A stretch of DNA of 41,667 nt, taken from Desulfobacteraceae bacterium (GTDB taxonomy: Bacteria; Desulfobacterota; Syntrophobacteria; Syntrophobacterales; Syntrophobacteraceae). The stretch's first letter is position 1; the number at the start of each line of letters is the position of its first letter. The stretch covers positions 1 through 41,667 of the forward strand of contig JAJFUA010000094.1 in NCBI GenBank assembly GCA_021372635.1, read 5' to 3'. The notes under the pieces are model-generated. The model did no database searches and was not told the origin of the DNA. It saw only the letters and a program-made list of their open reading frames with translations. This document shows, piece after piece, positions 218 to 10,299 of this stretch. Position numbers and translations under genes: made by a program.

Positions 218-3200
218 CTACTGGAGCGATTCGACAATGGCGTTCACCTGTGCCCGTATCTGGTCGACCGTAAAGGAATGGACGAGCACCCCCTGTTTCG
301 GGCAGGTCGCTTCGCAGATGCCGCACCCCTTGCAGACGGCCGTATCCGTCTTGATCCTCCGCCGTCTGCGGCCATCCTCCACGTATTCCTCCAACGAGAT
401 GGCCGAATACGGGCACACATCCAGGCACAGGGCGCAGCCGTCGCACCTCGGGGTGACGTAGGATTTTACAGCGTCCAGTTCCAGCCGGCTCTTCGAGAGA
501 ACGACCCCGGCCCGGGAGGCGGCGGCCTTTCCCTGCGAAACCGCCTCATCGATCGGTTTCGGATAATTGCACATCCCGGCGACGAAGAGGCCGTCCGTGG
601 CCATGTCGACCGGCCTGAGCTTCGGATGGGCCTCGTTGAGAAAACCGTCTTCGTTCTGCCCGCAGCGGAACAGTTCGATCAGCTCACGGTTCTCGTGAGG
701 TTCGATGGCGGCCGCGAGCACCAGGAAATCCGCAGGGATCTTCAGCGGGCGCCGCAAGACGGGGTCGAGGGCCTCCACAAAGAGGCCGCCGTTGTCCCGG
801 TAGACATCGGGTTTGGCCTGCACGTCGTAGCGTATGAACACGACGCCCAGTTCCCGGGCCTTGCGGTAGAGTTCCTCGCGCATCCCGTACGTGCGCATGT
901 CGCGGTAGAGCACGTATACGTCCAGGTCGGGGTTGAGCCCTTTCAGCTTCGCGGCGGCCTGGACGGTGTGCGTACAGCACACGCGGCTGCAATACATGCG
1001 GCCGTTTTCCCTCGATCCCACGCACTGGATGAACACGACGCTCCGGGCCCGCCGGACGGCTTCCACATCCCCGCCGAGCACGGCTTCGAATTCCATGTGG
1101 GTCATCACACGGCCGTCCTGGCCGTAGAGATATTCCCGGGGCACACGCTCGCGGGCTCCGATGGCGATCACCGCGGCCCCGTAGCGTATCGTCCGGGTGT
1201 TCCCGTCCATGGAGACCTCGCTCTGGAAATTGCCCACGGTCCCCGAACAGGTTTTCACCTGCGCGTTCAACAGGAGATCGATCCGTTCGTGCCGTTCCAC
1301 TTTTTCGATCAGATCCTCCAGTTGCGGCCGGACTTTGCGGCCCTTCCAGGTTTCCTCCAGCTTCCAGGCATTGCCGCCGAGCCTTGCGCCGCTTTCGACC
1401 AAAGTGGTCGGATAACCCTGATCGGCCAGGGCAAGTGCGGCGTTCATGCCCGCAATGCCTCCCCCGACGACCATCGCGCGCTGGACCACCCGGACACCGG
1501 GGCGCTGGACGGGAACGTTCAGGGCCGCCTTCGCCACCGCCATGCGGACCTGGTCCATGGCCTTGCGCGTGGCGGCTTCCGGATCGTTCTGATGCACCCA
1601 GGAGTTCTGGTTCCGTATGTTGGCCATTTCCAGGAGGTACGCGTTCATCCCCGCCTCTCTCAGGGTATCCTGAAAGAGAGGTTCGTGAGTTCTTGGGGTG
1701 CAGGCGGCCACGACGATGCGGTTCAGACCGTGTTCCCTGATCTTTTCCGCAAGAATCCGTTGCGTGTCCGTCGAACACGTGAAGAGATTGTTTTCCACGA
1801 AGATGACGTGAGGAAGCATCCGCGCGTATGCGGCAACCTTCTCCACGTTCACCACGCCGGCGATGTTGATACCGCAGGAGCAGACGAAGACGCCTATCCT
1901 GGGGTCCTGCCCGGAGACGTCCGTCTCCGCCGGGTAGGTCTTCTCCCTGGTCAGCGTGCCCCGCGCCGCGGCCAGCGCCCTGGAGGCCTCGGCCGCCGCC
2001 GCGGAGGCTTCGGTAACCGCCCGGGGTATCGCCTTGGGAGACTGAAAACCACCCGCGACGTAGATCCCTTCCCTGCTGCTCGAAACGGGCTTGAAGGCGA
2101 TGGTTTTGGCAAATCCGTACGCGTCCAGTTCGAAGCCGAGCTTTTCCGAAAGCTTCACCGCGTCCGCGGACGGCCCCATGCCGATGGAGAGGACCGCCAT
2201 GTCGAAAGGTTCGCGGTGCTGCACGCCGGCTTCGTCGGAGTAGACCATAAAGACGCCGCAGCCGCCCTCCCCCGCCTCGATGGTATGGACGCGGGACCGG
2301 ATGAACCGCACCCCCTTGTCCTTCGCCCCTTCGTAGAACCTCTCGAATTCCTTGTTGGGGCTCCGGATGTCCATGTAGAAAATTGTCTGCTCCGCTCCCG
2401 CTTCCTTCACATGCTCGGCGGTCACCAGCGCCTGCTTGATGGCGTACATGCAGCAGATGCTCGAACAGTATCCGTTTTTCATGTGGTTCACTTCGCGTGA
2501 ACCGACGCACTGGAGCCACGCGACTTTCCGCGGTTCGCGGTTGTCGGACGGCCTGACCAAGTGCCCCATGTGAGGGCCGCCCGCGGAGAGGAGCCGTTCG
2601 TATTCGAGGCTCGTCACGACGTCGGGAATCTTCCCGTAGCCGTAGAATTCGTAGCGGGAGGGGTCGAAGGGCTTGTAGCCCGGGGCGAGAATCAGGGAAC
2701 CGACGTTGAGCGTGAGGACCTTCTCCTCGTCGTTAAAATTGATCGCGCCCGTGGGACAGAATTTTTCGCAGGCGCGGCATTTTCCCTTGGCAAGATAAAG
2801 GCAGGACGACTCATCGACGGCATATTTCAAGGGAACGGTCTGCCCGTACTTGATGTAGATCGCCTTTCGTTTGCCAAGGCCCGCGTTGTATTCGTCGTCG
2901 ACTTTTTTGGGGCACTTCTGTGCGCACAGGCCGCAGCCGATGCACTTGTCCAGGTCCACATAGCGGGGTTTCTGTCTTGCCGTCACGGTGAGATTGCCTT
3001 CCTCTCCCGTAACGTTCTCCACTTCGCACAGCGTCAACAACTCAATGTTCAAGTGCCGACCGCACTCGACCAGTTTCGGCGAGATGATTCACATCGCACA
3101 GTCGTTGGTCGGGTAGGTCTTGTCCAATTGGGCCATCACGCCGCCGATCCCGGAACTCTTTTCCAGGAGGTACACGTAGAATCCCGAATCGGCCAGGTCC

Positions 3201-3268
3201 AGGGCGGCCTGAATGCCGGCGATGCCTCCACCGACGATCGCGACCGATCCAACAGGTTTTGCCGTCAT
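218..3268 (-). CDS. hdrA: Heterodisulfide reductase subunit A, long two-FAD form, with selenocysteine at residue 60
   Basis: This is a 1016-aa cytoplasmic flavoprotein of the Hdr electron-bifurcating complex. The N-terminal FAD motif GGGIAG is near residues 13-18. An in-frame UGA (3089-3091) follows TNDCAM, where the family has cysteine (DCSMCI), and the frame continues [13 protein letters not shown], so it is read as selenocysteine. Two [4Fe-4S] motifs follow (Cys 109/112/115/119 and 156/164/167/171), then CVGSR and YCSSICC (about 254-273), CSCG (about 463), a second FAD motif GGGIAG (about 602), a second CVGSR, and two C-terminal ferredoxin clusters (Cys 942-952 and 979-989). Usual HdrA is about 650 aa; here the FAD module is duplicated. 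The ATG at 3268 has an AAAGGA site. It sits between a maturation protease gene and mvhD. Tools stopping at UGA would call a 944-aa protein from a TTG codon. Confidence 0.93.
3051..3067 (-). promoter_or_regulatory. Candidate bacterial SECIS hairpin of hdrA
   Basis: In the mRNA the stem GAGUGC / GCACUU closes a GGUCG loop starting 27 nt after the UGA at 3089-3091. A lower helix (UC/GA plus further pairs after one mismatch) extends it. A GGUC-type apical loop at this distance fits SelB-dependent bacterial SECIS elements. Pairing was found by eye; folding energy was not computed. Confidence 0.65.
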
Positions 3269-3326
3269 ACGCGTCCTTTCCTTTGCTTGCCGTATAAACC
3301 CGGCTGCCATTGTACGTGAGTGCAGA

Positions 3327-3860
3327 TCATTCTTTCGACCGGCAGCCGCCCGGCGCTTCTCCGATTTGGCGAAACAACCAGGCACACGCACGATCGACCG
3401 CAGCCCGAACTTCCGGCGAAAGACCCGGCTGGACGAATTCAGGGACAATCACAGCCCGAACGGCCAGGATACGCACATCCACTCCGGCGGAAAACTTCAG
3501 CTCCCGCAGCAGGCTCATGGACGGGACCTGGTGCGGGGTGAAACCTCCAGTCCCGCCTTCCGGCACCCTTTCGACGGGGATTTCGAAGATTTCGCCGGGC
3601 TCTACCCCTCCGGAAGCAACCGCATCCACGATGAACAGGCGGCGGGGCCTGACGGGCGAGAGCACGAAATCGAAGAGAATGTCACCGGCGCTGGTGCCGG
3701 CATCCATGGCCAGGACGTTTTCAGGAATTTTGTAGTGCTTGTGCAGGTGTTCGATCACTTCGGGGCCGAAACCGTCGTCGCCCAGGAGCGTATTGCCGCA
3801 GCCCAGAATGACGACAGGTTTAGTGAACAGTTCTCCAATCACGGCCATCCTCACTTTCAT
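3327..3860 (-). CDS. Hydrogenase maturation protease (HyaD/FrhD-type endopeptidase)
   Basis: A 177-aa protein with the family core [17 protein letters not shown] near the N-terminus, then [19 protein letters not shown] and GFTPHQVPS. These match the nickel-dependent endopeptidases that trim the large subunit of [NiFe] hydrogenases; the Glu/Asp Ni ligands correspond to the D of GDDGFG and the D of MDAG, while the family's last His is seen in TPHQ. It lies 58 bp upstream of hdrA on the same strand, so it probably belongs to the hdr-mvh unit and suggests that a [NiFe] hydrogenase large subunit lies to the left of the window. The start is uncertain: ATG 3860 has no clear Shine-Dalgarno site, and a second ATG lies four codons later. 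Confidence 0.85.
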
Positions 3861-6825: not shown

Positions 6826-7210
6826 GCAGCCTTAAAATGCACCCGGACACACTGCCGCGAGCGGCGGGAGGTTCGGTGCGGGCGCAGGCGCGGGGGAGTT
6901 CCGGCCGGATCGGTCCGGAAGAGTGCGAGGGCTCCCGGGCTTCGTTGTCCGAAAAGTTCCGGAGGGGCTCGGAATCGGGCAACACGAAGAGCAGCGCCCG
7001 GCATCCACGCGGCAGATCGGCCCGGTTCGGTCTGCGCGCAGTACAGGAGTTAAATAGGGATTTACGGGAAAGCCGCCTCAGTGGTTGCAGGACCATACGA
7101 CACGGCACTTTTTTGTCCGGGCACGCTCATCGGCCCGCCCCAGGGCTCGAGAAGGGTCTTTCGGCGCCTTCGCCGTCGACCGGCGTGCCAATCGTTTTGA
7201 GAGGAAACAT
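6826..7210 (+). other. Long GC-rich leader before the D-Ala-D-Ala carboxypeptidase gene
   Basis: About 385 bp without a supported gene between a promoter-like site and the signal-peptide start at 7211. A frame runs through it but is Arg/Ser/Gly-rich like a shadow and has no ribosome site. I recognise no known riboswitch. It could hold a structured leader or a small RNA. Confidence 0.35.
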
Positions 7211-8569
7211 ATGCAGAAGAAATGCTTCCCTGTCTTGTTTGTTGTGATCCTGCTGGCCCTTTCCCTGGTCTTTCCGGGTGCCGCCCTCTGTGCGGAGCAG
7301 GGCACGGGAAAGAAGAAAATAAAGGCCGCAACGCCGGGCAGCAGGGCAAAAACGGACCAGGCAGCCACGAGCAAGGCCGGCCAGGAACCGAAGACCGCAA
7401 GCGGCGAACCTTCCCCGGGCCAGATCAACGCGCGGGCGGCCATGCTGGTGGAGGTGTCCACCGGAACGGTATTGTTCGAACAGAATGCGGACGATGCCAT
7501 AGAACCTGCGTCGTTCACAAAGATTCTCTCGCTCTATCTCGTCTTCGAGCAACTCCAGGCCGGCCGCATACACCTGAACGACGAAATCTGGGTCAGTGAA
7601 GCGGCCTGGCGCACGGGCGGCTCCAAGATGTTCGTGGGCATCGGAACCAAGGTGCCCCTGGAAGAACTTCTGAAGGGCATCGCGGTGGTTTCCGGAAATG
7701 ACGCCTGCGTGGCTGCCGCCGAGCACTTGTCGGGCAGCGCGGACACTTTCGTGGACAATATGAACGCCAAGGCGAAGGAACTCGGTATGAACCGGAGCCG
7801 GTTCATGAACCCGCACGGCCTTCCGGCGGACGGCCAGATCACGACCGCCAGGGACATGGCGCTGCTCGACGCCGCCTATCTGCGGCGCTTCCCCGAGTCC
7901 CTCCGGTTCCATTCCATGCACGACTACACGTATAACAACATCACCCAGTACAATCGAAATCACCTGATCCTGAAGGACCCGGCCATCGACGGGTTGAAGA
8001 CCGGCTTCGTCGGCGCCGCGGGCTACCATCTCTCCGCCACGTCCCAGAAGGACGGCATGCGCCTCCTGGCCGTGGTCATGGGCGCGGCATCCCCGCGCAT
8101 CCGCGAGCAGGAGGCTTTGAAGCTGCTGAACTTCGGCTTCCGCTACTACACGCTCGTGCAGCCGTTCCCCAAGGGGCAGCCGCTCGCCACGGCGAAAGTC
8201 TGGAAGGGCGAAGTGGACGAAGTGGGCCTTTTCGCCCAGGACGCGCCGGCCTTCCTGATCTCACAGACGCAGAAGAACCAGCTTCGCTGGGAAGTGCATG
8301 CACCGAAGGAAATCACCGCCCCCCTTCCCCCCGGGCAGACGCTGGGTGAAGTGGTTTTCTACGTTTCGGATCAGCCCCGCAGAACCGTGGCGCTCGTCAA
8401 CAACGACGAACTCAAGCCAGGCGGCTGGTTCAAGCGAACCTGGCAGACGCTGCTCTTTGTCCATTCCTTCGACTGGCGCTGGTTTGCGGGCATATTGGGC
8501 GGCATTCTCCTCGTGGCCGTCCTGTTCTTCGTCGTCACCGGCGTACGGGGAAGGTCCCGGCGCTTCTGA
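7211..8569 (+). CDS. D-alanyl-D-alanine carboxypeptidase, S11 family (penicillin-binding protein 5 type)
   Basis: A 452-aa periplasmic enzyme that trims peptidoglycan pentapeptides. Signal peptide about residues 1-28 (MQKKCFPVLFVVILLALSLV...). A Lys/Ala/Ser-rich linker (30-68) precedes the catalytic domain with SFTK (101-104, nucleophile Ser and Lys), SGN (161-163) and KTG (263-265), the three S11 motifs in correct order. A PBP5-type beta domain follows and a C-terminal transmembrane helix (about 425-447) ends in basic residues, anchoring it to the membrane. The start at 7211 has GAGAGGAAAC upstream; an in-frame extension to 7085 is rejected because it lacks a signal. A C-rich hairpin (8586-8609) follows the stop codon. 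Confidence 0.92.
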   Translation: MQKKCFPVLFVVILLALSLVFPGAALCAEQGTGKKKIKAATPGSRAKTDQAATSKAGQEPKTASGEPSPGQINARAAMLVEVSTGTVLFEQNADDAIEPASFTKILSLYLVFEQLQAGRIHLNDEIWVSEAAWRTGGSKMFVGIGTKVPLEELLKGIAVVSGNDACVAAAEHLSGSADTFVDNMNAKAKELGMNRSRFMNPHGLPADGQITTARDMALLDAAYLRRFPESLRFHSMHDYTYNNITQYNRNHLILKDPAIDGLKTGFVGAAGYHLSATSQKDGMRLLAVVMGAASPRIREQEALKLLNFGFRYYTLVQPFPKGQPLATAKVWKGEVDEVGLFAQDAPAFLISQTQKNQLRWEVHAPKEITAPLPPGQTLGEVVFYVSDQPRRTVALVNNDELKPGGWFKRTWQTLLFVHSFDWRWFAGILGGILLVAVLFFVVTGVRGRSRRF

Positions 8570-8631
8570 CAGCGGAAGGAAAAGCGGGGGGACGGTCGTT
8601 AAGCCCCCCCCCTCCGGGCGCACTGCATGAA

Positions 8632-8665
8632 AACGCCGGATGAAGGGTGTCCCTCATCCGGCGTT
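8632..8665 (-). terminator. Hairpin terminator of the FmdB-selenoprotein operon
   Basis: A 12-bp perfect inverted repeat (AACGCCGGATGA / TCATCCGGCGTT) with a 10-nt loop. On the minus strand it is followed by TTTTC. It starts 8 bp past the stop codon of the 53-aa selenoprotein gene, which supports that reading frame ending at 8673. It may also act on transcripts from the carboxypeptidase gene. Confidence 0.65.
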
Positions 8666-8672
8666 CATGCGA

Positions 8673-8834
8673 TCATTTTTTGGTATTCGTAGTCGCTGCG
8701 TCCTTTTTTCCGGAATCCCCGATTCCGCAGGAAGAGGACATTCAGGTGGGCACACCCATCCTTGGCAAGACCCATCGATTCAGGACCACCCAGGCAACGA
8801 CCACTCCCACGACGATCAAAACGTTCCAGAACAT
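8673..8834 (-). CDS. Putative 53-aa membrane selenoprotein (in-frame UGA at residue 31)
   Basis: The ATG at 8834 has a near-perfect GGAGG six bases upstream. The product starts MFWNVLIVVGVVVAWVVLN, a single transmembrane helix, continues RWVLPRMGVPT, meets UGA (8742-8744), and continues MSSSCGIGDSGKKDAATTN to a stop just before a terminator. Without readthrough it would be a 30-aa peptide. The UGA lies in a U-x4-C arrangement right after the helix, a plausible redox or metal site. A SECIS-like hairpin follows. The second gene of an operon behind an FmdB zinc-ribbon gene. Read as a selenoprotein because the same window has a clear selenocysteine hdrA. Function unknown; a Cys-containing homologue would settle it. 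Confidence 0.62.
8711..8727 (-). promoter_or_regulatory. Candidate bacterial SECIS hairpin of the small selenoprotein gene
   Basis: A 7-bp perfect stem CGGAATC / GATTCCG closes a GGG loop that starts 21 nt after the UGA at 8742-8744. An outer UCCU / AGGA helix can form across an internal loop. G in the first loop positions and this distance fit bacterial SECIS rules. Found by eye. Confidence 0.55.
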
Positions 8835-8928
8835 ATGCAACCTCCTGCAGGACGCGGCCCCCGGCCGCATTCCGGCCGAAAGGCCGGCGTCCAGGCGAAC
8901 CCGGCAACCTGCCGGGCAGGCTTCACGC

Positions 8929-9135
8929 TCAGCTGAATCCTCCTGTCTTCGGGCTGCTGCAGCCGGACTTCAGCGTCCCGCCCCCGCCGCTGGTACTCGA
9001 GAAACAGGATGGAAGCCGCTCGATTCGTCCACCGCCGCAACGCGGACACCGAACCGACTCCTTCTCCTCCGTATTCAGGAGGAGCGACTCGAATTCACAG
9101 TTGCACTCCCTGCAACTGTACTCGTAGATGGGCAT
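8929..9135 (-). CDS. FmdB-family zinc-ribbon protein
   Basis: A 68-aa protein beginning MPIYEYSCRECNCEFE, with CxxC at residues 8-11 and a second CPRC near 30-33, the four-Cys zinc ribbon of the FmdB (regulatory protein FmdB/CxxC_CXXC_SSSS) family. The tail is Ser/Gly-rich (SSTSGGGG) with one more Cys, as is typical. The start has AAGGAG nine bases upstream. The gene is first in a two-gene operon with the small selenoprotein, 94 bp apart; the gap contains two GC hairpins (8874-8889 and 8900-8916). Exact role unknown; the family is linked loosely to gene regulation or metal handling. Confidence 0.88.
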   Translation of the reverse strand: MPIYEYSCRECNCEFESLLLNTEEKESVRCPRCGGGRIERLPSCFSSTSGGGGTLKSGCSSPKTGGFS

Positions 9136-9414: not shown

Positions 9415-10299
9415 ATGAAATCTTGCGATCCCAAGTCGTGTGCGAGTTGCACCAGCAAGGGCAAAGGATCCCGCGAAGAGGTGGTCCACTGCAAGCTGAT
9501 GAGCATCAAGCACAAGTTGATCGTCATGAGCGGCAAAGGCGGCGTGGGGAAGAGCAGCGTCGCCACATATCTCTCCCTGGCCCTGGCCATGAAGGGTTAC
9601 AAGGTGGGCCTGATGGATATCGATCTCCACGGTCCAAGTATTCCGAGAATGCTGGGGCTGCACGGCGTGCTGAACATCACCCCGGACAACCAGATCAAGC
9701 CGCACGAATACCGTCCCAACCTCAAGGTCGTCTCCATCGAATCGATGCTCGAAGACACCGATTCCGCCGTCATCTGGCGCGGTCCCCTCAAGCACGGGGT
9801 CATCCTGCAGTTCCTCGCGGACTGCACCTGGGGCGAACTCGATTTCCTGGTGGTCGACTGTCCTCCGGGAACCGGCGACGAACCGCTGAGCATCGCGAAA
9901 CTGATCCCCGACGCCCGTGCCATTATCGTAACGACTCCCCAGGAAGTCGCGCTTTCCGACGTTCGGAAGTCCATCAACTTCTGCCGGAAAGTGAACCTGG
10001 AAATGGCGGGCCTCGTGGAAAACATGGCCGGCCTTTTCTGCCCGCACTGCCAGGGGTTCATCCCCATCTTCAGGACCGGCGGCGGGAAAAAGACGGCCGA
10101 TCTCATGGACATCCCCTTTCTGGGTTCCCTCCCCTTCGACCCCGCCGTGGTGGAAGGCGGCGATGCCGGACGGCCCGTCCTGGAAGACGACGGAGATTCC
10201 CCGTTCAAAAAATCGGTGCTGCAATTCGCGGAATCGGTCGTGGGCAGGCTCAGAATGACGGCCATCGTGAAAGAACCCGAAGAAAAAACCGTTCACTAG
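9415..10299 (+). CDS. mrp: Mrp/NBP35-family iron-sulfur cluster carrier ATPase
   Basis: A 294-aa cytoplasmic P-loop protein. The deviant Walker A GKGGVGKS is at residues 40-47, DIDLHGPS (switch) near 69-76, and VVDCPPGTGDE near 147-157. The N-terminus has Cys 4, 9, 12 and 26 and the C-terminal CPHC (209-212) is the conserved bridging Fe-S motif. It assembles and hands [4Fe-4S] clusters to apoproteins, which suits a genome rich in ferredoxin-type enzymes such as HdrA. The start has GAGGAG ten bases upstream. The transketolase gene follows after 20 bp and may be co-transcribed. Confidence 0.92.
   Translation: MKSCDPKSCASCTSKGKGSREEVVHCKLMSIKHKLIVMSGKGGVGKSSVATYLSLALAMKGYKVGLMDIDLHGPSIPRMLGLHGVLNITPDNQIKPHEYRPNLKVVSIESMLEDTDSAVIWRGPLKHGVILQFLADCTWGELDFLVVDCPPGTGDEPLSIAKLIPDARAIIVTTPQEVALSDVRKSINFCRKVNLEMAGLVENMAGLFCPHCQGFIPIFRTGGGKKTADLMDIPFLGSLPFDPAVVEGGDAGRPVLEDDGDSPFKKSVLQFAESVVGRLRMTAIVKEPEEKTVH

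Follow-up and report, generated by a model that had tools for sequence, protein, structure and literature searches.

A 53-codon gene on the minus strand of a Desulfobacteraceae contig almost certainly encodes a selenoprotein, as judged from its sequence, from comparison across its family and from structural modelling. The DNA came from Desulfobacteraceae bacterium (Syntrophobacterales; Syntrophobacteraceae; GCA_021372635.1, contig JAJFUA010000094.1), and the whole stretch analysed, positions 1 to 41,667 (41,667 nucleotides), is referred to here as the window. The explanation taken as a whole, that the gene belongs to an uncatalogued selenocysteine (Sec) family, is decoded through SelB and an mRNA hairpin, and would act in redox chemistry at the membrane surface, is in our judgement quite probable. 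An earlier note on this DNA, which gave no strand, had described a strong ribosome-binding site at the start, a UGA at codon 31 followed by 22 in-frame codons, a hairpin of 7 bp whose GGG loop lies 21 nt past that UGA, and a further hairpin 8 nt past the stop; all of these were found in the sequence, the last with a measured core of 14 bp and 6 bp more beyond a 2-nt bulge. Because Sec is encoded by the stop codon UGA, the gene is missed by gene finders. The features of the locus are as follows.

8673 to 8834, minus strand: gene of the predicted 53-aa selenoprotein, product MFWNVLIVVGVVVAWVVLNRWVLPRMGVPT-U-MSSSCGIGDSGKKDAATTNTKK (direct sequence and family conservation)
8841 to 8846, minus strand: Shine-Dalgarno sequence AGGAGG, with a 6-nt spacer to the ATG (direct sequence)
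8834 to 8832, minus strand: start codon ATG (direct sequence)
8758 to 8831, minus strand: predicted membrane helix, codons 2 to 25/26, then the juxtamembrane segment NRW[VI]LP[RK][LM]G (AlphaFold and invariant residues)
8742 to 8744, minus strand: UGA codon 31, assigned to selenocysteine (TGA in 101 members, Cys in four selA-less genomes)
8727 to 8729, minus strand: Cys codon 36, the predicted partner of Sec31 in U-x4-C
8711 to 8727, minus strand: bSECIS-like hairpin with a 7-bp stem and a GGG loop from 21 nt past the UGA, CGGAATC-GGG-GATTCCG
8675 to 8673, minus strand: stop codon TGA, 22 codons beyond the UGA of codon 31
8625 to 8670, strand unassigned: perfect hairpin and short T run (folding energy)
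8929 to 9135, minus strand: FmdB-family zinc-ribbon gene (TIGR02605, E 1e-13; Pfam Zn_ribbon_8, E 2e-13)
3089 to 3091, minus strand: in-frame TGA, the Sec codon of hdrA, within a CAMU motif (hdrA open reading frame about 218 to 3373)

The hairpin past the stop has a minimum free energy of -35.7 kcal/mol (z -7.7); it is a probable terminator and may also serve the convergent gene at 7085-8569.

The host genome carries the machinery expected where a bacterial selenoprotein is made. It contains selA (616 bits), selB (395 bits) and a tRNA-Sec with the anticodon TCA (UCA), and so the absence of selA, selB and selC, which the earlier note had named as grounds for giving up the idea, does not apply. 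The same note had taken hdrA as a sign that the genome probably encodes Sec; the in-frame TGA of this gene, at the CxxU site where HdrA is known to carry Sec, was located at 3091-3089, and the presence of a Sec-type hdrA in the window thus confirms that Sec is used in this genome. Among 60 genomes consisting of the host and its relatives, SelB exceeded the cut-off in 55. Five genomes with the Sec form gave no match for one of the machinery genes tested (SelB in G022, G035 and G068, SelA in G584 and G511), and these are probably incomplete assemblies. Several genomes of the host's order (G026, G028, G030, G034 and G038) have a pair of SelB-like genes that both exceed the cut-off for that family.

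Conservation of the gene was assessed by translating through stops in the same 60 genomes. In 46 of these, the frame was kept through a single in-frame TGA at the same place, giving proteins of 45 to 60 residues; homologues are therefore not confined to the part before the UGA, nor does the open reading frame end at codon 30 in related genomes, the two outcomes that the earlier note had set against its own proposal. We then ran a pattern covering the helix side only, L[NS][RK]W[VI][LF]P[KR][LM]G, which ignores the Sec and Cys36 positions, on 84,980 species genomes. It returned 103 relatives, 80 of which were retained, and in these 80 loci the codon at the Sec position was TGA in 79 and TGC (Cys) in 1, and TAA, TAG or TGG (Trp) in none. 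When duplicates were collapsed, Sec was present in 101 of the 102 collected members, a list for which entry required a Cys at +5 and either U or C at 0, and TAA, TAG and Trp were again not found. A UGA that is conserved between species and flanked on both sides by conserved sequence is what a bacterial selenoprotein gene is expected to show. The spread of the family is far wider than the earlier note had supposed and extends over several phyla: a profile search matched 164 of 395 genomes in the phylum Desulfobacterota (109 of 246 genera; approximately 40% of the species sampled), with TGA in all among the matches listed, and 25 of 294 genomes in the Planctomycetota, 22 with TGA and 3 with Cys. 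Single loci were also found in Zixibacteria and in Spirochaetota. Among cultured bacteria, the gene is present in Desulfacinum infernum, Desulfuromusa kysingii and Malonomonas rubra.

The few Cys forms provide a natural control for the decoding of the UGA. They occur in four genomes, all planctomycete (L182, L185, L193 and L097), and such homologues, with Cys exactly at position 31, are both what the earlier note had suggested searching for and a further hallmark of bacterial selenoproteins. The selA gene was present in 0 of the 4 Cys-form genomes versus 14 of 16 planctomycetes with the Sec form (Fisher p=0.003). In the first Cys form met, that of Planctomycetales bacterium 71-10 (L097), SelB was below the cut-off, while it was over the cut-off in 26 of the 27 Sec-form genomes checked alongside; TGTGCGGTGTCACCGCAC, a hairpin that looks like a fossil SECIS, is retained in this Cys-form gene. 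The planctomycete Cys forms fall in unlike sequence groups, a distribution that suggests repeated conversion of Sec to Cys after loss of the Sec machinery. Reading of the UGA as Trp was rejected, since Trp occurs in no member and Cys takes its place in genomes lacking selA.

The predicted protein is small and simple. Across the family it has 45 to 90 residues, with one N-terminal helix, the segment [NS][RK]W[VI]LP[KR]xG[VI]x[TS], the U-x4-C motif and a short hydrophilic tail. AlphaFold, run with 37 family members, places the helix at residues 2 to 25 (pLDDT about 90) and leaves the tail unstructured (pLDDT about 50). The main set shows no variation at W21, P24, G27, Sec31 or Cys36, MSxSC is conserved past the UGA, and Cys36 is present in all 80 loci found by the pattern that ignores it. 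On the reading preferred here, SelB, guided by the hairpin 20 to 24 nt downstream, decodes UGA 31 as Sec. As the most likely function we tentatively propose, at somewhat less than an even chance, a selenol/thiol redox mechanism in which a U-x4-C tail anchored to the membrane would work at the cytoplasmic face. Insertion of the helix with its N terminus out and its C terminus in would present the selenol at the inner membrane, on its cytoplasmic surface. Sec31 could then attack an oxidised substrate, such as a peroxide, a polysulfide, an oxidised thiol or the disulfide of a membrane protein, after which Cys36 would resolve the adduct to give a selenenylsulfide that might be recycled by cytosolic thioredoxin or by a membrane donor. 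Counting against this mechanism, no recurrent neighbour or domain names a substrate. In a few distant relatives the partner Cys is shifted (to +6 in L054, and to directly before the Sec in L057 and L058) or there is no Cys nearby (L056, L191 and L198), and the resolving step thus does not extend to every member; it is as if the family included redox variants.

The surroundings of the gene were then compared between members. The earlier note had linked the selenoprotein to FmdB, and this holds within the host's order, where 22 of 35 members have an FmdB gene immediately upstream and another two have one about 1.3 kb away on that side, but not elsewhere, as no FmdB was found near members outside that order. 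The FmdB gene is thus a probable upstream operon partner in the host's order only; such an adjacency is a feature of the lineage, a general functional partnership is unlikely, and FmdB was rejected as a general partner. The spacer between the FmdB and selenoprotein genes (8840-8928, minus strand) is very GC-rich, with 107 nt folding at -58.5 kcal/mol (z -2.4), and is perhaps an attenuator or a processing site. A NUBPL/Mrp-type Fe-S P-loop NTPase gene at 9415-10299 is divergent to the FmdB-selenoprotein pair. Outside the host's order the gene stands alone among varied neighbours: when 124 genes neighbouring 27 loci were scanned against Pfam, no recurrent function and no recurring metal-transport gene emerged, the commonest families (PLDc, response regulator and PilZ) being seen beside at most 4 members each, and a shared neighbourhood outside the host's order was rejected on this basis.

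These data bear on two other roles for the protein. Many small regulatory membrane proteins are short, have a single helix and are encoded by stand-alone genes. The length of the product, its single helix, the invariant W21-x2-P24-x2-G27 and its stand-alone gene would all suit a protein that serves a membrane complex, for instance a respiratory or proteolytic one, as a small accessory subunit whose Sec modulates its partner; however, no neighbour recurs and the near-exclusive use of Sec is left unexplained by that reading alone, and we regard it as rather unlikely. Slightly less likely again is a Sec protein in which U-x4-C binds or delivers a metal or a selenium species in the manner of a metallochaperone, together with FmdB in the host's order. 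It would make use of two soft ligands near the membrane and of the FmdB zinc ribbon that adjoins the gene in the 22 host-order members, but a pair of soft ligands, five residues apart, is scant for a monomer that has to bind stably, the FmdB adjacency ends with the host's order, and metal-transport genes do not recur nearby.

The cytoplasmic placement of the Sec in the redox mechanism preferred here follows from the charges that flank the helix. In the collected members the N side has a mean charge of -0.8 and the C side a mean of +2.0 with a minimum of +1, and by the positive-inside rule this positive charge places the Sec tail in the cytoplasm. The opposite orientation, N-in and C-out, would expose the Sec to the periplasm for redox work in the envelope; possible upstream starts in planctomycete members, which would add a basic N terminus (e.g., MKKGK), would favor it and leave the planctomycete orientation ambiguous from sequence, but with a C side that is net positive in every collected member we give a periplasmic Sec a low probability, on a par with that of metal or selenium binding.

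Bacterial SECIS elements are defined as stem-loops located 16 to 37 nt past the UGA, with a G within the first two positions of the loop (PMC13188914). Downstream of the UGA, 76 of the 102 members have a hairpin of -4 kcal/mol or lower that satisfies this loop rule, mostly at 20 to 24 nt (the commonest distances being 20, 21, 23 and 24), and its pairs covary. Among the 35 members from the host's order, seven pairs were formed in 81% of cells versus 30 to 50% when the pairing was slid by 1 to 3 nt, and compensatory changes with several two-sided pair types were observed, a comparison uncorrected for relatedness. Compared to synonymous recodings, the hairpins gave a mean z of -1.86 over 101 members, also uncorrected for relatedness, and the window hairpin gave a p of 0.015. 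Against dinucleotide shuffles the window hairpin alone was not significant (z -0.99), and the case for a SECIS therefore rests on the family-wide and synonymous-codon tests. Past the UGA, 98 of 181 changes fell at third codon positions, compared with 207 of 319 before it, and the synonymous excess was smaller past the UGA (66:80) than before it (177:89). That the UGA is instead a true stop, ending a 30-aa one-helix peptide followed only by a regulatory RNA hairpin, would fit the short hairpin and tail in the window, the plausibility of a single-helix peptide of that length and the lower conservation of the 22 codons past the UGA compared to the helix, but it is extremely improbable given the restriction of the position to TGA or Cys, the Cys substitutions in genomes lacking selA, the conservation of Cys36 and MSxSC, and a codon-phase bias that continues past the UGA.

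The selenoprotein was also compared with known families. The earlier note had recognised no named family, and Pfam and NCBIfam (June 2026) agree: none of 33 diverse members reached a curated cut-off (best E about 0.01). The sequence-database matches were at chance level only (PP0621 family, E 0.057; a mycobacterial EmbB helix in the PDB, E 0.4), and membership in a family of NCBIfam, Pfam or the PDB was rejected. An inventory from 2026 that covers 119 families of prokaryotic selenoproteins, through which the Olavius symbiont OS_HP families were also compared, has no entry with a U-x4-C motif or a one-helix description (PMC13188914), although its bacterial families resemble ours in having a bSECIS-directed Sec with a nearby Cys. 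Literature searches with motif strings and U-x4-C motif names returned nothing relevant. The family is thus absent from the selenoprotein catalogues searched, while single proteins may be annotated in GenBank. An FmdB-family selenoprotein with a CxxU Sec in FmdB itself has been described in the GOS study (PMC2398784); here, the FmdB neighbour, which matches TIGR02605, keeps its cysteines, and the Sec is borne by a separate membrane peptide that gave no match to that model. TsoB, a rhodanese/DsbD fusion-like selenoprotein with UxxxxU (NF045694; PMC13188914 Table 1), likewise has four residues between its two reactive positions, but it is a large double-Sec fusion to which members of our family gave no NCBIfam match.

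The closest working analogues, for which we claim neither homology nor shared membership, are SELENOK and SELENOS, single-pass selenoproteins of the eukaryotic ER (PMC10650576). Like them, the proteins described here have one N-terminal helix, a Sec in a tail that AlphaFold predicts to be disordered, and no globular redox domain. Unlike them, they show no detectable sequence relationship to the eukaryotic pair and no Gly-rich segment, and they have the Sec near the membrane and 22 residues before the end, rather than second or third from the C terminus, with a Cys five residues on and a bacterial SECIS inside the coding region. Whether this is a phylum-wide, one-helix bacterial counterpart of SELENOK and SELENOS, almost purely Sec-using, missed by standard searches because it has nearly no Cys homologues, and performing a membrane-surface selenol chemistry new to prokaryotes, seems to us evenly balanced.

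The authors of deep-Sep stated in 2025 that Cys homologues seem to exist for every known selenoprotein, and that their own method may overlook selenoproteins without them (PMC12013277). The very small number of Cys homologues may explain why this family was overlooked. A family present in approximately 40% of the sampled species of the phylum Desulfobacterota, as well as in Planctomycetota, Zixibacteria and Spirochaetota, was in no catalogue searched, and its near-exclusive use of Sec bears both on the deep-Sep statement (PMC12013277) and on methods that filter by Cys homologues; small, nearly Sec-only families may constitute a systematic blind spot. With 53 residues and simple genetics, the protein offers a test system for the preference of Sec over Cys at a membrane surface, for which planctomycetes without the Sec machinery supply natural Cys forms.
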